From Neisseria subflava (lineage in GTDB: Bacteria; Pseudomonadota; Gammaproteobacteria; Burkholderiales; Neisseriaceae), in assembly GCF_024205745.1 (NCBI RefSeq), contig NZ_CP073117.1, positions 1,426,001 to 1,490,000 on the forward strand: 64,000 nucleotides of DNA. Reading direction: 5' to 3'. The position numbers were made by a program, and so were the translations under genes. The notes below the pieces were generated by a model. It saw only the letters and a list, made by a program, of their open reading frames with translations, ran no database searches and had not been told where the DNA came from. This document shows positions 8,014-17,043 of this stretch, piece by piece; the first letter of the stretch is position 1; every line of letters begins with the position of its first letter.

Positions 8014-8412
8014 GTGAGTCTTTCTCTGTCCCAATATCTGCTTTACCTGCAATATATGTTGGCAGGTATCGCAATGACTGTAGTTTTCGGTGCCGTATAT
8101 TTGCGGATTACCCCCGTCGAAGAATTGCGCCTGATTAAAAACGGCAACCTTGCCTGCGCCTTATCGTTTGGTGGCGCGTTAGTCGGTTTCTGTCTGACGC
8201 TTGCCTCAAGTATTGCCCACAGTGTCAGCTTCATCGATTTTATCCTATGGGGATTTGCCGCAGCAGTGATTCAGATTTTTGTCTATTTCGCTGCAACAAT
8301 GATGATTAAAGGCGCTACCGCAGAACTCATTGGTAATAATGTCGCCGTCGGTGCGTTGTTTGGCGCAGTGTCTATCTCGATTGGCATTTTGAACGCTGCT
8401 TGCTTAACTTGA
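8014..8412 (+). CDS. DUF350-family membrane protein
   Basis: A 132-residue protein of about four transmembrane helices with the repeated half-pattern of DUF350: IAMTVVFGAVYLRITPVEELRLIKNGN followed by SFGGALVGFCLTLASSIAHS, then a second copy with ATMMIKGATAELIGNNVAVG...GILNA. Translation starts at GTG 8014; AAGGAATC provides the Shine-Dalgarno. DUF350 proteins are known as neighbours of DUF4178, SPFH/PspA and polyamine-related genes, and such a cluster lies 1.5 kb downstream on the same strand, separated by an outer-membrane protein gene. Molecular function is unknown. Confidence 0.8.
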   Translation: MSLSLSQYLLYLQYMLAGIAMTVVFGAVYLRITPVEELRLIKNGNLACALSFGGALVGFCLTLASSIAHSVSFIDFILWGFAAAVIQIFVYFAATMMIKGATAELIGNNVAVGALFGAVSISIGILNAACLT

Positions 8413-8550
8413 TTTTGATGGTCGGTTGGATAGCAAAAGATGTGCTTATCCTAATTCTTACCTGGAAAAATTATCGGTAGATTTTTTTGACTGATAAGGT
8501 CTTATGTCTGACGTTATTAGCGTAATGGTGAGATTTGGTAAGTATCAAAA

Positions 8551-8589
8551 AATTCAGACGGCCTGTTATATACAAGGCCGTCTGAAATG
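8551..8589. terminator. DUS inverted pair between DUF350 and outer-membrane protein genes
   Basis: ATTCAGACGGCCT and AGGCCGTCTGAAAT are inverted over a short AT-rich loop, between convergent genes; likely a bidirectional terminator. Confidence 0.75.
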
Positions 8590-8613
8590 TTTTAACTGCG
8601 TAAGTTCGCTAAA

Positions 8614-9444
8614 TTAGAACGAGTATTGCAATCTTATGCCTGTTTCACGAGTGCGGTTTTTAGGTTCGATCGCGCCCAATTGAATGAAGCCATAGTCTTC
8701 TGTAACGGTGAAGTTTGAATCTTTAACTTTCCAGCCACGATAGAACGGGGTCAGGGTGATTTTAGAACCGTTAGCGAATTTTTTAGATACAGGTACTTCC
8801 ACCTCGATACCTTGTCCACCACCTTGTTTCATTCTGGTTTCTTCTCGATTTGGTTCGTAAGAATACTGGCGGCCTTTCACGGCACGATTGTAAGCAATAC
8901 GAGGAGCAATCTCAAAGTTTGCAGGAAGGGCAACATTTACACCGGCATTGATTTGCGCATATGTGGTTCGGTTTTTGCGGTCATAATCATCAGGATCGAC
9001 GCGTCGGCTCAAATCTCTCAGAACACGGTGTCCCAAGCCTGCACCGGCAGTCAGGCTAAAGCGATCGTTAATCGGATGTGTATATTCATATAAGGCACGG
9101 ATATCGTATGCACGGCGTGGGGCATCTTTGAGTGTGGCAGAACCATAACCTGTGGATTCACCAAATCCATTTTGGAAACTTCCTGTGTAATCTGATTTAC
9201 CGCGGGAATAACGGCCTTCCAATTTCGCTGCATGGCGATCGTTGAAACGGTATTTAACCCCCGCATTAATAGACCACAGGTTGCCTTTTTGTTGCATTAT
9301 TCGGCTACCATCTTGTTCATATTCGCGATAGGTTTCGTTGTAATATTCGCTGCCAACGGTAAATTCAACAGGGCGGGCAGCCTGTGCGCCTACTGCAGCA
9401 GACAGTGCCAATACAGCAAGACAGAAATGAGCAGAATTTTTCAT
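8614..9444 (-). CDS. Outer-membrane beta-barrel protein
   Basis: A 276-residue exported protein. The signal peptide runs MKNSAHFCLAVLALSAAVGAQA, with cleavage about residue 22. The rest alternates short amphipathic strands (INAGVKYRF, AAKLEGRYSRG, DIRALYEYTHP, FSLTAGAGLGHRV, YAQINAGVNVAL) and ends in RLQYSF, an aromatic C-terminal residue as required for BAM assembly. About 12 strands are plausible. No known adhesin or porin motif is visible. The start at 9444 is chosen for the AAAAGGAATTT Shine-Dalgarno and the signal peptide. It separates the DUF350 gene from the SPFH cluster and is on the opposite strand. Confidence 0.75.
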   Translation of the reverse strand: MKNSAHFCLAVLALSAAVGAQAARPVEFTVGSEYYNETYREYEQDGSRIMQQKGNLWSINAGVKYRFNDRHAAKLEGRYSRGKSDYTGSFQNGFGESTGYGSATLKDAPRRAYDIRALYEYTHPINDRFSLTAGAGLGHRVLRDLSRRVDPDDYDRKNRTTYAQINAGVNVALPANFEIAPRIAYNRAVKGRQYSYEPNREETRMKQGGGQGIEVEVPVSKKFANGSKITLTPFYRGWKVKDSNFTVTEDYGFIQLGAIEPKNRTRETGIRLQYSF

Positions 9445-9878
9445 GTAAATTCCTTTTACTTTGTGAAAATCAGTGTGATAATTTAGTGATATAGCATGGT
9501 GGATTTTATAGTATTTAATGAATATTAACAATGCCGTTGGGGTAATATGTTGACTGTTTGGTGTGTTATTTAATGATTTACCGCAAGTATTTGTCTTTTT
9601 TATGAGACAGTGCAGATAAAAAGTCTGGAAATAGTGTAAAACTAAGGCAATATAAAGTCTAATTTTGAAGCCTGTTGGTATGTTAATGTTTCTAGGTAGG
9701 CTAGTTGGTTTAACAGTAAAAGCACATACGGCTGCTTACTCTATTTTCATACATAAAGACATTTTGAATGTTCATATTATATGACATTCTATTTATATAA
9801 AATAAGCGATATAACCGGCCAGGTAAATTGACCTGACTGCCCATAAGTCATCCCTTCTTCTTCAAATAAGGAACTGCG
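9445..9878. other. AT-rich intergenic region between outer-membrane protein and SPFH genes
   Basis: 434 bases of AT-rich DNA holding the divergent promoters of both neighbours. I find no DUS and no credible ORF. A weak sigma70-like -35 (TTGAAT near 9764) with AT-rich downstream bases could serve the SPFH gene, but I cannot define a -10 with confidence. Confidence 0.4.
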
Positions 9879-10892
9879 ATGTTCAACTTTATCAAGAAAC
9901 AGTTTATCGATGTCATTCAATGGCCGAATCCTGATGACAGCCTGCTGATGTGGCGTTTTCCGATTGCCGATGAGGAAATTCAAAACGGCGCGAGTCTGAC
10001 TGTGCGCGAGGCGCAGATGGCGATGTTTGTCGATGAAGGCGTAACTGCCGACGTGTTCGGGCCGGGGCGTTACACGCTCAATACGCAAACGTTGCCTGTG
10101 TTGACCAACTTGAAAAACTGGGACAAACTCTTTGAATCTCCATTTAAATCGGATGTTTACTTTTTCAATACCAAACAACAGCTCGCACGGAAATGGGGTA
10201 CATCCCAACCTGTTACCGTGCGCGATGCCGAGTTTGGCGCGGTGCAACTGCGTTCGTTCGGTATGTATTCTTACCGCATCAGCGATCCGGCAAAATTCTT
10301 CAAAGAAGTCAGCGGTGTGGCGGCGCAATACAGCGGTGTAGACTTGGAAAACCAACTGCGCAATATTGCAGTCACCCAGTTAGCGGCCGCGTTTGGCAGC
10401 TCCGGTATCCCATTCTTGGATATGGCGGCGAACCAAGTTTTGCTGTCGCAAAAAATCGGCGAATTGCTTGGCGCGGAATTTGCCAAGCTGGGTTTGGCGC
10501 TGGAAAACTTCACTGTTGAAAGCATTACCTTGCCCGCGTCTATTCAGGCTGCGTTGGATAAGAAAATTTCGATGGGCGTTATCGGCGATTTGGGACGTTA
10601 CACCCAATATCAAACCGCCGAATCCATTCCGCTTGCGGCACAAAATGAAGGCGGACTTGCCGGAATCGGTGCAGGTTTGGGCGTAGGTGCCGGTATTGGT
10701 CAGGCAATGGCGGGTGCCATGTCTGGCATGATGCAGCCGAATGCGCAACAGGCTCAGCAAAATGTTCAGCCGGCTGCCGAAGATCCGCAGGCAAAATTGG
10801 TGAAACTCAAGTCTTTGCTGGATGGCGGTTTGATTTCGCAAGAAGATTTTGATAAAGCTAAGGCTGAAGTGTTGAAACAGTTGATTGGTTAA
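9879..10892 (+). CDS. SPFH-domain protein with C-terminal SHOCT (YdjI/virion-core-like)
   Basis: A 337-residue protein of the SPFH/band-7 group often annotated as virion core protein or YdjI-like. Residues about 25-245 form the SPFH and helical region (AQMAMFVDEGVTADVFGPGRYTL is diagnostic in shape). A Gly/Ala/Met-rich hydrophobic linker (270-300) and a Gln-rich stretch follow, then a SHOCT motif at the end (KLVKLKSLLDGGLISQEDFDKAK). SPFH proteins scaffold membrane microdomains and membrane-stress complexes; SHOCT often mediates oligomerisation. It heads the DUF4178-SpeD cluster but is followed by a DUS hairpin, so read-through may be partial. Confidence 0.85.
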   Translation: MFNFIKKQFIDVIQWPNPDDSLLMWRFPIADEEIQNGASLTVREAQMAMFVDEGVTADVFGPGRYTLNTQTLPVLTNLKNWDKLFESPFKSDVYFFNTKQQLARKWGTSQPVTVRDAEFGAVQLRSFGMYSYRISDPAKFFKEVSGVAAQYSGVDLENQLRNIAVTQLAAAFGSSGIPFLDMAANQVLLSQKIGELLGAEFAKLGLALENFTVESITLPASIQAALDKKISMGVIGDLGRYTQYQTAESIPLAAQNEGGLAGIGAGLGVGAGIGQAMAGAMSGMMQPNAQQAQQNVQPAAEDPQAKLVKLKSLLDGGLISQEDFDKAKAEVLKQLIG

Positions 10893-10898
10893 TCAATT

Positions 10899-10969
10899 GA
10901 AGGCCGTCTGAAAAATATCATTCAAAGAAGCGTTGAGCTGCTTCTGTGAAAAGGTTTCAGACGGCCTTT
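10899..10969 (+). terminator. Long DUS hairpin after the SPFH gene
   Basis: GAAGGCCGTCTGAAAA pairs with TTTCAGACGGCCTTTC over about 40 bases. It would attenuate transcription between the SPFH gene and the first DUF4178 gene. Confidence 0.65.
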
Positions 10970-11095
10970 CGAATCATTTGATTGAGTCCGTTCGGCGATT
11001 TGGTGTGTTTCTAATCTGAAATCATTGATAAAACCAGTTGATATAAACGTTAAGACCGTCTGAAACATTCCAACCCATTCTGAAAAAGCAAATCC

Positions 11096-12616
11096 ATGTC
11101 TCAAACTCCTTTCTTCAAAACCGACTGCCCAAGCTGCGGCGCACCTGTCGAAGCGCATTCTGCTTCTGCCGTGACGCTGGTGTGCGGTTATTGCAACAGC
11201 ATGCTGGTGCGGCAAGATAACGGCGTTGTCGACTCCGGCCGCGATTCCGCATTGCTGGAAGATTTTAGTCCGCTGCAAATCGGAACCAGCGGCACATTTG
11301 TCGCGCAACGCTTTACCTTGGTCGGACGGCTTCAGGTGCAATACGACGATGGTGCGTGGAATGAATGGTATGCGCTGTTTGACGACGGCAGGGTAGGTTG
11401 GCTTTCTGAGGCGGGCGATTTGTATGTGATGACCATGCCGGTCGAAATCGATAATCCGCCGAAATTTGAAGACACGCGAGCCGGATTTAGCGAGCTGACT
11501 TTTCAAGATAAGCACTATATTGCCTCCGATGTCCGCAAAATCAGCTTGAAACGCGTCGCCGCGCAGGGTGAATTGCCGTTTGTTTTGAAAGAGGATACAG
11601 AAAATCGGGTTTCCGACTGGCGTTGCGAAAACCTTTTCATTACGCTCGATTACAACAATAAAACACCCGAAGCCTTCTTCGGACGGATGGTAAACCTAGA
11701 TGATTTGAAGCTGGAAAACACGCGCCATGAAGATGAAATTAAAGAAAGCGCAGGCCGTCTGAAAGGCAGTATTACTTCAGAAAACTGTCCTAACTGCGGC
11801 TCATCCATTCATTGGGTAAACGGTCTGACTTCCCATCTGAACTGTCAAAGTTGCGGCAGCGAATTGGCAGTCGGCAAAGATAAAGCGGAGCTTATTACCG
11901 CCAATAATCTGCGTTTGTCGCAGAATACGCTGTTTACTCTGCCTATCGGCTCGACAGGCCGTCTGAAAAATAAAGAGTTTCATGTTATCGGCGCAATCCG
12001 ATATTTAGAAACAGATGCGCAGGAAACATTCGACAACCTGTTCAACGGCGCCAACCGCGTGCTCACACCCGAAGGCCAATGGTCGGAATATCTGCTTTAC
12101 AACCCAACTCAGGGTTTCTTATGGCTGGTTGAAGCTGATGAAGGTTGGAATATTTCCGAAACCTTGAACGATTGGCCGCGCCTCGACCGCAACCGCCAAC
12201 CGCAAGGCTATGGCAAACTTTATGACTATGGAGGCAGGGTAGAAGTCGCTGCCGGCGCCTTCTATTGGCGTGTCCGAAGCGGTGATTTGAACTATTACAG
12301 TGATTACCGAGACGGACAAAGCCGTAAGCTTGGCGCAGAACTAAACAGTCACGAAATGGCATGGAGTAGAAGTACCCCCATTGCTTATCGGGAAATTGCA
12401 GATGCGTTTAATTTGACCAGCCGCGCTCCGCATTACACTGCAAACATGGCGGCAGACGGTATTGATAAATCATTAAGAATCATAATGACCGCCATCTTGG
12501 TTGTCGTTAACCTCCCTGCGCTTCTGACCGGTGACAGCTCTGCCGCACTTACCGTTATCTTTATAGGATGCTGGTTGTTGTGGACCATGGGTAAAAAAGA
12601 CGAGGACGAGGATTAA
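11096..12616 (+). CDS. DUF4178 protein with two zinc ribbons (first copy)
   Basis: A 506-residue protein of unknown function with a repeated plan. Zinc ribbon 1 (CPSCG...CGYCN, about 14-38) precedes DUF4178 domain 1 (about 50-190, with LLEDFSPLQIGTSG and WNEWYALFDDGRVGWLSE). Zinc ribbon 2 (CPNCG...CQSCG, about 235-260) precedes DUF4178 domain 2 (about 280-430, with LFTLPIGSTG and WSEYLLYNPTQGFLWLVE). The C-terminus has two hydrophobic segments (MTAILVVVNLPALL; ALTVIFIGCWLLW) and stops after an acidic tail. It is a paralogue of the gene at 13232-14929. One base separates its stop from the next small ORF, so they are translationally coupled. Confidence 0.85.
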   Translation: MSQTPFFKTDCPSCGAPVEAHSASAVTLVCGYCNSMLVRQDNGVVDSGRDSALLEDFSPLQIGTSGTFVAQRFTLVGRLQVQYDDGAWNEWYALFDDGRVGWLSEAGDLYVMTMPVEIDNPPKFEDTRAGFSELTFQDKHYIASDVRKISLKRVAAQGELPFVLKEDTENRVSDWRCENLFITLDYNNKTPEAFFGRMVNLDDLKLENTRHEDEIKESAGRLKGSITSENCPNCGSSIHWVNGLTSHLNCQSCGSELAVGKDKAELITANNLRLSQNTLFTLPIGSTGRLKNKEFHVIGAIRYLETDAQETFDNLFNGANRVLTPEGQWSEYLLYNPTQGFLWLVEADEGWNISETLNDWPRLDRNRQPQGYGKLYDYGGRVEVAAGAFYWRVRSGDLNYYSDYRDGQSRKLGAELNSHEMAWSRSTPIAYREIADAFNLTSRAPHYTANMAADGIDKSLRIIMTAILVVVNLPALLTGDSSAALTVIFIGCWLLWTMGKKDEDED

Positions 12617-12617
12617 C

Positions 12618-12764
12618 ATGTCGAGAATCACTTACATCATTTTCAGCACCATCATCATCGTCATCTCCATGATCATCAGCTACGGCTCTTCCGACTCCGA
12701 TAGCTCGCGTATGCACTCCGGCGGCTATTATGGCGGCAGTGGTTATTCCGGAGGTCATAAATGA
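12618..12764 (+). CDS. 48-residue membrane peptide, detached tail of the DUF4178 protein
   Basis: ATG at 12618 opens a 48-codon frame ending in TGA at 12762-12764. It begins MSRITYIIFSTIIIVISMII, one transmembrane helix, and continues with SSDSDSSRMHSGGYYGGSGY and a final GGHK. The same layout ends the second DUF4178 protein (hydrophobic helix, DSDSSHSGSGG, then GHK), where it is fused in frame. The peptide therefore corresponds to the C-terminal tail of its upstream neighbour, encoded as a separate gene. The stop overlaps the speD start (ATGA), so translation is probably coupled on both sides. Function unknown. Confidence 0.8.
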   Translation: MSRITYIIFSTIIIVISMIISYGSSDSDSSRMHSGGYYGGSGYSGGHK

Positions 12765-13141
12765 CCCATGCCCCCGGTAATCATGGTCTATTGGACTTAT
12801 ACGGCTGCGATGAAGCCATCTTAAAAGATGAAGGCCGTCTGAAAACCGCTTTGGCAGCTGCCGCACAGGCTGCAGAAGCCACCATATTGACCGAACACTT
12901 CCACACCTTCGGCGGAGCAGGCGGCGTAACCGGTGTTTTACTGCTCACCGAGTCCCATATCAGTATCCACACTTGGCCGGAACACCGCTTCGCCGCCATT
13001 GACGCATTTATTTGCGGTGATATGAAATTGGAAAAAGTGAAGGAAATCTTGTGCAGGGAGTTGGGGGCTGAAAGGGCTGTTTGGACGGTTGTGCAACGTG
13101 GCGAAGGTATACTGGACGATATACAGCTCTTGGTTGAATAA
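12761..13141 (+). CDS. speD: S-adenosylmethionine decarboxylase proenzyme
   Basis: Pyruvoyl enzyme that makes decarboxylated AdoMet, the aminopropyl donor for spermidine-type polyamines. The 126 residues fit the short bacterial class 1B. The self-cleavage site Glu-Ser and following motif are intact (LLLTESHISIHTWPE, about 62-76), as is the downstream cysteine region (AAIDAFICGDM). It overlaps the upstream 48-codon gene by 4 bases. A DUS lies inside the coding sequence and is translated as EGRLK. No aminopropyltransferase gene occurs in the window, so decarboxylated AdoMet must be used by an enzyme encoded elsewhere or by an unusual acceptor reaction. Confidence 0.93.
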   Translation: MTHAPGNHGLLDLYGCDEAILKDEGRLKTALAAAAQAAEATILTEHFHTFGGAGGVTGVLLLTESHISIHTWPEHRFAAIDAFICGDMKLEKVKEILCRELGAERAVWTVVQRGEGILDDIQLLVE

Positions 13142-13152
13142 TAAAATCTGTC

Positions 13153-13194
13153 AGGCCGTCTGAACGCATATTTAATCCGTTTTCAGACGGCCTT
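13153..13194 (+). terminator. DUS hairpin after speD
   Basis: AGGCCGTCTGAA and TTTCAGACGGCCT are paired across about 17 bases. The lack of a long T-run suggests a weak terminator or attenuator ahead of the second DUF4178 gene. Confidence 0.65.
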
Positions 13195-13231
13195 AAACCT
13201 TGTGCTGATTAAACTGAAATATTGACGCTAT

Positions 13232-14929
13232 ATGGAAAAAACGCCTTTTTTTAAAACCGATTGCCCAAGCTGTGGTGCGCCTGTGGAGGCGTATTCCGCT
13301 ACTGCCGTGACATTGGTGTGTGGCCATTGCCGCAGTATGCTGGTTGCTAGAAGCGGTAAGGGGAGGAGTGGATATTTTGTTGCCAATTCAGGGCGTGATT
13401 CAGTGTTGCTGGAAGATTTCAGTCCGTTGCAGATTGGAACGCGAGGCGTTTTTGATGATCGAAAATTTACGCTGATTGGCCGATTGCAGGTGCATTACGA
13501 TGTCGGCGTATGGAATGAATGGTATGTCTTGTTTGATGACGGGCAGACCGGCTGGCTTTCCGAGGTTGGCGATTTATATGCGATGACATGTTTGCTTACT
13601 CAGAAGAGGAGACGGGGGCCGAAAAATTTTAAGTCGGTGAAAGCAGGTTCCAGTTCGTTGATCTTTAATGGCCAAACCTTTATTGCGTCAGACGTTCGCA
13701 CCATACATTACCGTAATACCGATGCGCAAGGCGAGTTGCCGTTCAACCTATCTGGGAATCAAGCGACAGGCGAGGTTTGCGACTGGCGACGGGGCAATTT
13801 GTTTTTGACCTTGGATTATTCGACTTTTCCAATGAACTCCTACTTCGGACGCATAGTCAGTTTGGACAGTTTGAAGCTGGAAAATAAGCGCAGTGATGAT
13901 GAAATCCGTGAAAGTGCAGGCCGTCTGAAAGGAGAGATTCTTTCTGAAAACTGCCCACATTGCGGCACTCCTGTCCATTGGCCAAGTGGTGTTACTTCTT
14001 TCCTTTTGTGTCAGTCTTGCGGCAGTAGTTTGAACACGACAAAAGATACTGTTGCGTTGATGGAGGCAAATGCCCAAAGGAAAGAACAAGAAAACCTGTT
14101 TACGCTTTCCATTGGTACGAAAGGCCGTCTGAACGATACAGAATATCTGATTATCGGAGCTGTAAGATTTGCCGAAATACCGTCTTATAACCAAAATCAG
14201 TCTGAATACTGGACGGAATATCTGCTTTATAACACGCAGCAAGGGTTTGCCTGGCTGATTGAGTCTGGAAAACGCTGGCGGTTGTCAGAAACCTTACACA
14301 CATGGCCGGACTTTGATTCAAGTGGCAATCCTGCCGGTGAAATGTTGATTGATCATTACCGTGGGCAGGTCGAGGCAGCTGCTGGTGCTTTTTATTGGAA
14401 AGTCAAACAAGGCGATTTGCTTCATTACAAGGAATATAGCGGCAAGAAAAGTTATGGCCGGAATGTCATTCTGTGTTCTGAGCAAAGCAAGGATGAAATA
14501 GTCTGGAGTAAAAGCAGTCCTGTGTCTTACCGTCAAATGAGAAAGGCATTCGGCCTGTCTTTTGATACTAAGGAGATGCTCTCTTATTGGCTGAAGGGCG
14601 ACAATAGAAATGTCGGGAGTCGAGATAATGTAGCCCGTATCATTGCCATGCTGATTCTTATCATCGTCAACCTTCCGGCCTGGCTGTCACCGCACCTACG
14701 TAGCCCTGTCGGCATAGTGGTCAGTCTGTGTGCGTTGGTATGGATATGGGTTTCCGACAGATATAAAAACGATCGTGATTACGAAGAAGAACGGGTAGGG
14801 ACGATAATTTTCTTTGCTTTCATCATTTTCCTTACCGTTTTGTTCAACTATGTCCAAGCGGAAGACAGTGATTCATCGCATTCCGGTTCCGGCGGCTCCT
14901 ATCATGGTTATTCGGCAGGGCATAAATAA
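13232..14929 (+). CDS. DUF4178 protein with two zinc ribbons (second copy, fused tail)
   Basis: A 565-residue paralogue of the protein at 11096-12616, with the same order: zinc ribbon (CPSCG...CGHCR), DUF4178, zinc ribbon (CPHCG...CQSCG), DUF4178, hydrophobic C-terminus. It differs by carrying the tail in frame: after VSDRYKNDRDYEEE it continues with a helix (GTIIFFAFIIFLTVLFNYV), then DSDSSHSGSGG and a final GHK. Its first zinc ribbon is followed by a basic insert (ARSGKGRSG). No good Shine-Dalgarno is seen before the ATG. Membrane attachment is inferred from the three C-terminal hydrophobic segments. Function unknown. Confidence 0.85.
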   Translation: MEKTPFFKTDCPSCGAPVEAYSATAVTLVCGHCRSMLVARSGKGRSGYFVANSGRDSVLLEDFSPLQIGTRGVFDDRKFTLIGRLQVHYDVGVWNEWYVLFDDGQTGWLSEVGDLYAMTCLLTQKRRRGPKNFKSVKAGSSSLIFNGQTFIASDVRTIHYRNTDAQGELPFNLSGNQATGEVCDWRRGNLFLTLDYSTFPMNSYFGRIVSLDSLKLENKRSDDEIRESAGRLKGEILSENCPHCGTPVHWPSGVTSFLLCQSCGSSLNTTKDTVALMEANAQRKEQENLFTLSIGTKGRLNDTEYLIIGAVRFAEIPSYNQNQSEYWTEYLLYNTQQGFAWLIESGKRWRLSETLHTWPDFDSSGNPAGEMLIDHYRGQVEAAAGAFYWKVKQGDLLHYKEYSGKKSYGRNVILCSEQSKDEIVWSKSSPVSYRQMRKAFGLSFDTKEMLSYWLKGDNRNVGSRDNVARIIAMLILIIVNLPAWLSPHLRSPVGIVVSLCALVWIWVSDRYKNDRDYEEERVGTIIFFAFIIFLTVLFNYVQAEDSDSSHSGSGGSYHGYSAGHK

Positions 14930-14996
14930 CGTGAGACCTGCTTAACCTCGTTGTACCGTTTTACTTTTATTTTTTCAGACGACCCTTTTATAAAAC

Positions 14997-16607
14997 ATGC
15001 TAACCCGCCGTCAATTTCTCAGCTATACCGCCGCGCTTAGTGCTGCCTCTGCTTTTTCTTGGCAGACTTATAAATACCTCAACCGCAAACCGCCGGTTTC
15101 TATTAACCGTGTTGGCTTGCCGTTGGGGCATTTGTTGCGCGACGGGGAATTGCTCAGCCCGCCGAGCCACCGTTATGAATGCAATACGTTGATACTCGGC
15201 GGCGGTGCGGCGGGTTTGGGAGCGTTGTGGTATTTGGCGAAGCATCATCACTGCGATGTATTATTGGCAGAAGGGTTTGAACGCAATGGCAACAATGCCG
15301 CCTATACGTCTTCAGACGGCCTGAAAGCGCCGAGCGGTGCGCATTATTTGGCTTTGCCGTCGAAAGAAAGCGTGTATGTGCGCGAGATGTTGGCGGATTT
15401 CGGTATTTTGCAGTCGGACGGCAGCTTCAGGGAAACCGATTTGGTCTATGCGCCCGAATCTCGCCTCTTGTATCAGGATAAATGGGTGGAACATTTATTG
15501 CCGAAAGAAGATGCGGATTCCAAACGGTTTTTTGATTTGATAGGCCGTCTGAAACAGGCTTACGGCAATGACGGTAAGAAAATTTTTGCCATTCCGATTG
15601 CGCTGTCATCGGCAGATGAGACATGGCGCAAACTCGATAATCTGACGTTCAAACAATGGCTTGAGCAAGAGGGCTACACCTCGCCCGAGCTTTTATGGTA
15701 TCTCGATTATTGTTGCCGCGACGATTACGGGCAAGGTATTGGGCAAGTGTCTGCCTTTGCCGGATTGCATTATTTTGCCGCCCGCAATAATGCAGAAACC
15801 GTCCTCACTTGGCCCGAAGGTTTGGCGCATCTTTCTGAAAACCTGCGCCGTCATGTCGGTTTGCAGGAAGGCTGGCAATGGCCGTCTAAAAACCATATCC
15901 GTTTGGAGAAACCTGCTTCGGTTAATGTTTCCGCCGTTAAAATCAAACCGCTTTCAGACGGCCGGATTGAAGTGTGGCTGCGTGATAATGCAAAAGGGGA
16001 AACCGTTGCCGTCACCGCGCAACACGTTATCTCCGCCATGCCGCTGATGGTTGCCGCCCGCATTATTGAATCTCCCGAACAATTTGGTCTGGACATTCCC
16101 GAATACGCGCCATGGCTGGTTTCTAATTTTGAACTGCACAGTTTCCCGAAAGAAAAAAACAACAGCGAACTTGCGTGGGACAATGTGGTTTATGGCAGCC
16201 AAAGGCTGGGCTATGTTGTTGCGACCAACCAGCTTATCCGGGTTGCCCGTCCCGAACGCACGATTTTTACCGCCTATGCCGCGCTCAACTACGATACGCC
16301 ACAAGCTGTCCGCCGCCAGCTGCTTGAATCAAGCGATGAAGAACTGCTCCAGCTTGCCGCCCAAGATCTGCTTACCGCTTACGGCGAAGGCTTTTGGCGG
16401 CACGTTTCCCATGTTGACATTACCGTTCGCGGGCATGGCATGAGCGTGCCGAAACCCGGCTATTTAAGCGATGAGGCTTTATTAAAAATCAGAAACCGAA
16501 ATTCTGGATTATTATTTGCACACAGTGATTTAAGCAGCTATTCGGTATTTGAAGAGGCTTTGTATTGGGGTGTGGAAGCGGCACGGAAAGTGTTGGGGCA
16601 GGGATAA
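14997..16607 (+). CDS. Tat-exported FAD/NAD(P)-binding oxidoreductase (amine-oxidase-like)
   Basis: A 536-residue flavoprotein. The N-terminus is a twin-arginine signal (MLTRRQFLSYTAALSAASAF), so it is exported folded with cofactor. The dinucleotide-binding motif follows at about residue 65-75 (LILGGGAAGLGAL). The C-terminal part (GLLFAHSDLSSYSVFEEALYWG) resembles the FAD-contacting end of flavin amine oxidases. Its place beside speD suggests a polyamine or amine substrate; this is inference only. A muc-type DUS variant (TTCAGACGACCC) lies just upstream. No strong Shine-Dalgarno precedes the ATG. Confidence 0.8.
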   Translation: MLTRRQFLSYTAALSAASAFSWQTYKYLNRKPPVSINRVGLPLGHLLRDGELLSPPSHRYECNTLILGGGAAGLGALWYLAKHHHCDVLLAEGFERNGNNAAYTSSDGLKAPSGAHYLALPSKESVYVREMLADFGILQSDGSFRETDLVYAPESRLLYQDKWVEHLLPKEDADSKRFFDLIGRLKQAYGNDGKKIFAIPIALSSADETWRKLDNLTFKQWLEQEGYTSPELLWYLDYCCRDDYGQGIGQVSAFAGLHYFAARNNAETVLTWPEGLAHLSENLRRHVGLQEGWQWPSKNHIRLEKPASVNVSAVKIKPLSDGRIEVWLRDNAKGETVAVTAQHVISAMPLMVAARIIESPEQFGLDIPEYAPWLVSNFELHSFPKEKNNSELAWDNVVYGSQRLGYVVATNQLIRVARPERTIFTAYAALNYDTPQAVRRQLLESSDEELLQLAAQDLLTAYGEGFWRHVSHVDITVRGHGMSVPKPGYLSDEALLKIRNRNSGLLFAHSDLSSYSVFEEALYWGVEAARKVLGQG

Positions 16608-16674
16608 TTGAATGGAGCAGATACTGGGCTAAATATCTGTTTGTATTCAAATTTCAATTCTAAAAGGAAACTAT

Positions 16675-17043
16675 ATGAAATATTTGAGCTTTTCTCTGAT
16701 TGTTGCCTTAGGGTTAGGGAGCGCGGCATTTGCCTCAGCTGAAAAAATGCTGCCTCTGAATGAAACAGGCTGCATTGACCAACCTTTACAGGTTAAACGT
16801 GGCCAAGTGTTTGGTTTTAATAGTTCGGCAGATGCCGGTTTAGTGCTTTCATTCTCGCCTGTCAGTCCTGGTGTCGTTGTGAAAGACCCGAAAGGCAAAC
16901 GGATTGCTTTGGAAGTAGGGGCTGATGGTGATGCACCTGAAAACCGCTTCAGTTTTGCCGAAATCAATCAAAAAGGACGTTACACCATTCGCTTCCCGCA
17001 CGCGGGTAAGATTGAATCTTTGTGTGTTAATGCTGCCGGTTAG
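16675..17043 (+). CDS. Small secreted protein, unknown function
   Basis: A 122-residue protein with signal peptide MKYLSFSLIVALGLGSAAFA, cleaved about residue 20-23. The mature part has a beta-rich look and two cysteines (one in NETGCIDQP, one in ESLCVNAAG), which could form a disulfide in the periplasm. I recognise no family. It follows the Tat oxidoreductase by 67 bases on the same strand and precedes a strong DUS terminator, so it is probably the last gene of the cluster. AAAAGGAAAC precedes its ATG. Confidence 0.7.
   Translation: MKYLSFSLIVALGLGSAAFASAEKMLPLNETGCIDQPLQVKRGQVFGFNSSADAGLVLSFSPVSPGVVVKDPKGKRIALEVGADGDAPENRFSFAEINQKGRYTIRFPHAGKIESLCVNAAG

Follow-up and report, generated by a model that had tools for sequence, protein, structure and literature searches.

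Clusters that combine SpeD, a fusion of MFS/7TM and spermidine-synthase-like parts, and DUF350 were reportedly described by Li et al. in Biochem J in 2019, who are said to have raised the idea of an acceptor other than putrescine. An operon containing a spermidine synthase fused to seven transmembrane (TM) segments, DUF350, a novel lipoprotein and DUF4178 was subsequently described, together with a variant that holds band-7/SHOCT, S-adenosylmethionine (AdoMet) decarboxylase and polyamine oxidase, and the 'aminopropylation of other substrates' was suggested, according to the excerpted text of that paper (Ravi, 2024, mSystems; PMC11237479). Here we analyze a locus of Neisseria subflava that lies in a window of 64,000 nucleotides, by which we mean the whole stretch of DNA analyzed (positions 1426001-1490000 of the single-contig, 2,213,981-base genome), and that is, with near certainty, the Neisseria form of this SpeD/TM-SpdSyn/DUF350/DUF4178 system, TM-SpdSyn being the 7-TM fusion. 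The genome carries a class 1b SpeD, TM-SpdSyn, DUF350 together with DUF4178, a band-7/SHOCT protein and a polyamine-oxidase-like flavoprotein. The locus shares with the excerpted clusters of PMC11237479 both the gene families and the idea of non-putrescine aminopropylation; unlike in those clusters, the fusion is unlinked in the N. subflava genome. The neighbourhood itself is already in print, without a known target. As far as the literature search goes, what is new is a C-terminal lysine tail, its membrane side, and the strictness with which the unlinked fusion and the oxidase occur in the same genomes: the phrase 'C-terminal lysine' has 0 occurrences in PMC11237479, the excerpted text of which makes no mention of a periplasmic transferase domain, and nothing on the lysine tail was found among the matches listed in a search whose coverage mostly left out subscription papers and preprints.

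The tail occurs twice in the window, in two different arrangements. DUF4178 protein a (11096..12616, + strand; Pfam E 6.1e-20) has a C-terminal hydrophobic region and an acidic end, KKDEDED, and its tail is split off as a peptide of 48 amino acids (aa) at 12618..12764 on the + strand, which has one TM segment and a Gly/Ser/Tyr-rich tail with the end ...GYSGGHK, the last residue being lysine (K). DUF4178 protein b (13232..14929, +; Pfam E 2e-17) has the same architecture without the split and a disordered tail ending in ...GYSAGHK, the predicted periplasmic lysine tail being fused to it as residues 546-565 (14867..14926, +). In the AlphaFold2 model of protein b, three TM helices (463-485, 492-511 and 517-545) precede this end, and the model confidence (pLDDT) falls below 50 at residues 551-555 and 557-565. 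Judged from sequence, the 48-aa peptide is the separately made last TM helix and tail of the DUF4178 protein, because in a close relative (genome G036, locus L049) the first DUF4178 gene is unsplit and encodes 564 aa, as against 506 + 48 aa in the window; the second DUF4178 gene of the same relative is broken into several pieces (L049 9806-11323). The open reading frame (ORF) of the peptide overlaps the start of speD by 4 bases, consistent with translational coupling, and the peptide has no Cys and hence no N-terminal lipobox. The sequence-only reading had treated this peptide as incidental; we find it to be the most telling part of the locus, with equivalents in 23/23 genus tails and 89/90 DUF4178 loci.

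Within the genus, the tails end in GHK in all 23 intact cases (21 plus the two of the window, the broken copy of L049 being excluded). For more distant loci we used a tail rule that is blind to the last residue and asks for one hydrophobic segment and, after it, 15 or more residues that are hydrophilic, in a product that either starts near the stop of the DUF4178 gene or is fused to the DUF4178 protein. Among the 87 loci in which DUF4178 was seen by our own profile (L102-L205), which include the L113-L115 proteins that the iterated profile takes up although they resemble only the last part of long DUF4178 proteins, 86 have a K-ended candidate by this rule, and the tail of the remaining locus, L182, also ends in K (...YYSRYVGGK) and lies slightly below the hydropathy threshold. 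A K-ended TM protein was further found by a K-end search in L116 and L118, two of the three loci with Pfam DUF4178 missed by our own profile (the third is L119), so that a TM segment with a K-ended tail, fused or separate, is present in 89/90 DUF4178 loci in total. A separate tally of 87/87 K ends is not in itself a test, because the split tails were picked among K-ended segments. Counting every candidate instead, 137 passed the blind rule and 87 of them end in K, namely 15 of the 54 fused and 72 of the 83 split candidates. One of the 15 fused K ends is the end of the L191 DUF4178 core; the 39 fused non-K candidates are read as DUF4178 core ends with a separate tail, and the 11 split ones as spurious ORFs. 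The same rule applied downstream of control operon genes gave 2 K among 47 candidates, compared with 72/83 for the split candidates (Fisher 6e-22), and a chance origin of the K ends was rejected on this ground. The other proteins of the system seldom end in lysine themselves (SPFH 0/64, SpeD 3/67, fusion 0/102, flavoprotein 5/76 and DUF350 0/55; 8/364 together).

The residue before the final K varies (H 61, G 21, V 3 and I 2 among 87 tails), and the final codon, AAA in 50 tails and AAG in 37, is followed by TGA, TAA or TAG. The lysine is not an overlap artefact, because both codons and three kinds of stop occur; as a by-product of an AAA-TGA overlap it was rejected, AAA plus TGA being found in just 23/87. 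A role of GHK as the copper-binding tripeptide was also rejected, since only the K is fixed and copper binding by this motif depends on a free N-terminus. According to their record titles, the loci with a K-ended tail belong to Pseudomonadota, Acidobacteria, Gemmatimonadota, Bacteroidota, Leptospiraceae, Verrucomicrobiota, Elusimicrobia, Fibrobacteres and Oligoflexia, which we take to be eight phyla, or nine with Oligoflexia apart; several of them are metagenome bins. A VPKSVRDNPGxYR-like motif before a final GGK is shared by the tails of L163, L167, L168, L184, L185, L192, L194 and L205, which are mostly Acidobacteria by title. Proteins of about 70 aa are encoded beside the tail gene in L120 (7894-8118), L163 (7261-7473) and L185 (9773-9985), and are read as half-size forms, those of L163 and L185 being DUF350-like by profile. 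On these counts, the lysine tail is well supported as a feature of the system. A residue that is fixed behind a variable neighbour might also be a recognition or sorting signal that another component reads, the lysine undergoing no covalent change, and yet, apart from the transferase and the oxidase, which each belong to an amine-handling family, the operon offers no obvious reader, so that we consider this explanation very unlikely.

The enzymes that accompany the tail point to polyamine-type chemistry. The predicted class 1b AdoMet decarboxylase SpeD (12761..13141, +; Pfam AdoMet_dc E 1.6e-34) scores 117.4 bits against a cut-off of 75.65 for the NCBIfam equivalog TIGR03330, is the only PF02675 match in the genome at E<=1, and has the motifs ESH...IHTWP...FICGD. 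The Ser, His and Cys that excerpts of PMC10407285 name for the T. maritima enzyme are found in the window SpeD at positions read as corresponding. Across the collected SpeD sequences, a motif pattern search gave 52/67 canonical and 15 other. Since SpeD makes decarboxylated AdoMet (dcAdoMet), an enzyme that uses dcAdoMet is needed. The genome has three PF01564 matches: the 504-aa TM-SpdSyn, which consists of a 7-TM part and a spermidine-synthase-like domain (C1:1589863-1591374, ~147 kb from the locus; E 1.3e-34), a SpeE-like protein of 264 aa, and one more match, which lies below the cut-off. TM-SpdSyn is likely the partner of SpeD and the user of dcAdoMet. The soluble 264-aa protein was rejected for this role: it lacks GGGDG and YHE, and it occurs in 46/46 genus genomes, compared with 19/46 for SpeD, and therefore does not track SpeD, its presence in all 46 also indicating that the search was able to find a gene in every genome. 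This protein (L002 1345-2139; G000:C1:70916-71707) matches NCBIfam PRK04457, named polyamine aminopropyltransferase.

By contrast with the soluble protein, the same 19 of the 46 genus genomes hold DUF4178, SpeD, full-length TM-SpdSyn and the flavoprotein, a pattern that is not corrected for species relatedness. In the 17 of these genomes with long enough contigs (two with short contigs were left out of the tally), 7 have the fusion close to DUF4178 and 10 have it unlinked, the corresponding numbers for the flavoprotein gene being 11 and 6. One genus genome without matches to SpeD, DUF4178 or the flavoprotein gene retains a 112-residue remnant of the fusion with a TGA inside (G022:C28:145590-145922), possibly a trace of joint loss. 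Among 398 genomes of the phylum, DUF4178 is present in 25 (E<=1e-6) and TM-SpdSyn in 29 (E<1e-150, a cut set where the E values jump from 1.2e-161 to 2.3e-106), and all 25 are within the 29 (hypergeometric 8e-36, uncorrected for relatedness); at E<=1e-30 the fusion profile reaches 99/398 genomes, ordinary soluble synthases by length included. The fusion also lies in 22/24 phylum DUF4178 loci. In a further set, the best 80 of at least 575 fusion relatives, analyzed as named loci with profiles built in Python, the fusion is accompanied by DUF4178 in 66, the flavoprotein in 61, SpeD in 55, SPFH in 53 and DUF350 in 45, and by all five in 35/80; these counts are lower bounds because some contigs are short. 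A flavoprotein gene entered the count only with a product of 400 aa or more and E<1e-20; the small 'FAD' ORFs that lie within SpdSyn are attributed to profile drift. The sequence-only reading had set the conservation of these genes together as a point on which it could be refuted. It withstands that check, since these families are found side by side again in related as well as in distant genomes, and therefore the cluster is not a chance one.

It could be argued that the locus is an ordinary cluster for spermidine or other polyamine synthesis with a membrane-tethered synthase, given that the fusion matches the NCBIfam 'polyamine aminopropyltransferase' equivalog PRK03612 (680.8 bits, cut-off 472) and retains aminopropyltransferase residues. 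However, such a cluster would give DUF4178, SPFH and the tail no role, and the soluble SpeE partner does not track SpeD (46/46 vs 19/46). Further, no alanine-racemase-fold ornithine/arginine decarboxylase was found in the genome with PF02784 (the other fold, PF01276, was not searched), because the sole PF02784 match over the cut-off is a 406-aa LysA-like protein, the LysA label being assigned here. A spermidine synthase mutant was reportedly not complemented by such a fusion in the 2019 work of Li et al., which also counts against this explanation, and we hold it to be quite improbable.

The topology of TM-SpdSyn bears on where its chemistry may occur. Across 103 homologues with seven TM segments, the N-terminus plus loops 2, 4 and 6 carry 9.8 K/R and loops 1, 3 and 5 carry 1.8, and the same comparison in a divergent set of 16 fusions gives 10.1 vs 2.2; the alternation places the catalytic domain outside. 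The catalytic domain is also poor in Cys (0.17%, and 0.06% in the divergent set), compared with 0.45% in SPFH, 1.06% in the flavoprotein and 2.3% in SpeD. Of 14 selected tail peptides, 12 have a TM segment that is flanked more positively on its N-terminal than on its C-terminal side, and 0 show the reverse, and thus the tails should point outward. These computed and indirect indications suggest that the tail and the transferase domain share the periplasmic side. The N. elongata fusion was modelled by AlphaFold2 with a mean pLDDT of 89.1; the model shows an aminopropyltransferase domain as well as the helices that were expected, and the best PDB match of the model in a fold search is 1uir (E 6.7e-18). 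Y268-H269-E270, GGGDG, D365 and D368 are kept in 103/103 fusions, which thus carry the SpeE motifs GGGDG, YHE and DxxDP. In the TM domain, E22, E117 and D143 are invariant, and we conjecture that they could bind a cation.

A second kind of carrier appears at other fusion loci. We looked at a further 20 fusion loci, 16 with E values from 2.3e-106 to 5.6e-91 plus four of the 29 without DUF4178, and in 17/20 found a protein that contains a hydrophobic segment and whose end, rich in Ser, Arg and Gly, stops in GK (for example, ...SRGIRRGK, ...SRSRFGGK and ...GGGPGSGK), a count that is descriptive, the last pattern search having been tuned to endings already seen. A lipobox-like pattern is present in 12 of these 17 carriers, and a tail on a lipoprotein would lie in the periplasm or at the cell surface, in support of the placement proposed for the TM-peptide tails. 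Several neighbours at these loci resemble, by appearance, genes of PspA-type operons. The membrane-fused transferase might instead aminopropylate a lipid head group or a small membrane or periplasmic amine, in the manner of the membrane-charge modifier MprF, the tail then being a scaffold or a recruiting signal. The aminopropylation of other substrates named in the excerpts of PMC11237479 would suit this too, whereas the occurrence of a C-terminal lysine in two kinds of carrier, a TM peptide and a lipoprotein, would be left unexplained, and we regard a lipid or small amine as an unlikely acceptor.

The last enzyme of the set is a flavin adenine dinucleotide (FAD)-dependent protein of the amine-oxidase superfamily (14997..16607, +; NAD_binding_8) with a signal resembling those for twin-arginine translocation (Tat), MLTRRQFLS. 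The TAT_signal match is sub-threshold (17.5 bits, cut-off 22.7), and a Tat motif pattern was found in 45/67 of the FAD proteins, a count spoiled by over-long ORF starts. Profile matches of the FAD protein are to MAO-B and the spermidine dehydrogenase SpdH and, more weakly, to LSD1, an enzyme whose substrate is peptidyl lysine. In one genus genome, the FAD gene lies in two overlapping pieces (L052 5572-7175, genome G042).

Taken together, we hypothesize that cytoplasmic SpeD makes dcAdoMet, that dcAdoMet may pass the membrane through DUF350 and/or the 7-TM domain, and that the periplasmic aminopropyltransferase domain of the fusion would move the aminopropyl group onto the C-terminal lysine of the tail, at its side-chain amine, the acceptors being the 48-aa peptide (12618-12764) and the tail of DUF4178 b. 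DUF4178 and SPFH may keep the tail within a membrane complex, and the Tat-exported flavoprotein may oxidize or remove the added amine. The lysine reaction, the export of dcAdoMet and the role of the oxidase are all parts that we infer, and the purpose of the system is probably envelope homeostasis. An aminopropyl-lysine tail gives the simplest account that uses every part; as an overall explanation, we judge it evenly poised between right and wrong. The wider claim, that this is a new extracytoplasmic protein modification in many phyla, in which lysine aminopropylation is paired with an oxidase as finisher or eraser, is put forward tentatively, at somewhat less than even chances. The sequence-only reading had proposed that dcAdoMet feeds the modification of a membrane-bound component, with the oxidoreductase acting outside, which fits the evidence and resembles the suggestion in the excerpts of PMC11237479; what it lacked was TM-SpdSyn, the enzyme that would use dcAdoMet.

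Several points weigh against this hypothesis. Its weakest step is the donor route, as dcAdoMet must reach the periplasm. The topology is derived from positive-inside counts, Cys content discriminates poorly because the Tat-type FAD protein has 1.06% and cytosolic SPFH only 0.45%, and the hydropathy count of TM segments in fused tails is scattered (1, 2 or 3). The tail rule was drawn up after tails had already been seen, and L119, a Pfam-DUF4178 locus, has no tail candidate; its genome is given as 71% complete and its fusion is on another contig. No GK-ended protein was found in three of the 20 further loci (L239, L244 and L251, the last on a short contig), and no tail was judged plausible in 14 named fusion loci without DUF4178, which would fit an unlinked fusion and is not proof of one. 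The FAD gene is present in only 61/80 named and 9/24 phylum neighbourhoods. Finally, a C-terminal lysine has another use, the attachment of Braun lipoprotein to peptidoglycan.

This last use suggests that the tail could be an anchor cross-linked to peptidoglycan by an L,D-transpeptidase, with the dcAdoMet chemistry acting elsewhere in the complex. Like Braun lipoprotein, the tail carriers are anchored periplasmic proteins, as predicted, with a C-terminal lysine; the genome has two YkuD (L,D-transpeptidase) matches over the cut-off, and the tail is modelled as disordered, as may suit an anchor. Unlike the window peptide, Braun lipoprotein is an outer-membrane, peptidoglycan-cross-linked protein without dcAdoMet enzymes, and an anchor would leave the company that the lysine tail keeps with an aminopropyltransferase and SpeD unexplained; we therefore consider it improbable.

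There are partial parallels for an aminopropyl-lysine tail. Deoxyhypusine on eIF5A is a polyamine-derived aminoalkyl group on a protein lysine. Unlike the proposed tail, the eIF5A case is cytosolic and involves an aminobutyl group from spermidine, an internal lysine and an unrelated enzyme. In E. coli, ygiB-ygiC and yjfIJKLMC likewise place a polyamine enzyme beside a protein that is anchored to the membrane or by a lipid and whose low-complexity tail has a fixed end; YgiC and YjfC adjoin DUF1190 proteins, and yjfIJKLMC also has the DUF350 protein YjfL. YgiC and YjfC are named as peptidyl-polyamine synthetases, and reported as peptide-spermidine ligases, in the excerpted text of PMC12568646, which gives the title of Pederick 2023. 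YjfM (...GHWGG; L258 9388-10026) and YgiB (...SSRSMGG; L259 2745-3416) both end in Gly-Gly, possible ligation ends. Unlike the chemistry proposed here, YgiC and YjfC use ATP-grasp ligation, and the GSP_synth ligase family PF03738 has no match in the Neisseria genome at E<=1, the E. coli and Caulobacter vibrioides controls being positive.

The genes that the sequence-only reading had placed on one strand were all recovered at the same coordinates with ORFs, Pfam and NCBIfam. DUF350 is a YjfL-family membrane protein (8014..8412, +; PF03994 E 5.6e-32), and the SPFH/band-7 protein has a C-terminal SHOCT (9879..10892, +; Band_7_1 E 1.2e-72; SHOCT 27.4 bits, cut-off 27). DUF350 adjoins SPFH in most fetched genus neighbourhoods; in the window, a gene for an OMP/OpcA-like outer-membrane beta-barrel (8614-9444, - strand; Pfam OMP_b-brl, OpcA) lies between them, as in 3/18 fetched genus neighbourhoods (L041, L043 and L050); the sequence-only reading had passed over this gene. 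The locus ends with an accessory small secreted protein of 122 aa (16675..17043, +), which occurs in 3/18 fetched genus neighbourhoods and has no Pfam or NCBIfam family at E<=0.01. No match was found when 2 kb of the locus were searched against plasmids.

Each of the two DUF4178 proteins contains two DUF4178 domains and two CxxC...CxxC (Cys4) pairs. A sequence search with DUF4178 gave weak zinc-ribbon-type matches only; the DUF4178 part of the 13232-14929 model is beta-rich with good confidence, and a fold search with DUF4178 b found no PDB match at E<=0.001. The 'twin DUF4178' arrangement is a local duplication found in 5/46 genus genomes and not a defining feature. The uptake sequence GCCGTCTGAA, which is Neisseria-associated, and its complement are present in 43 + 42 copies in the window, and both DUF4178 genes carry uptake sequences 204 bases apart (11754 and 11958; 13920 and 14124), an equal spacing that fits a gene duplication.

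For the widespread SpeD/fusion system, a dedicated tail that is anchored in the membrane and almost always ends in lysine provides a concrete candidate acceptor. If the hypothesis is true, it would add an extracytoplasmic modification of lysine that depends on dcAdoMet, and would explain why SpeD is retained in bacteria that may not make spermidine.

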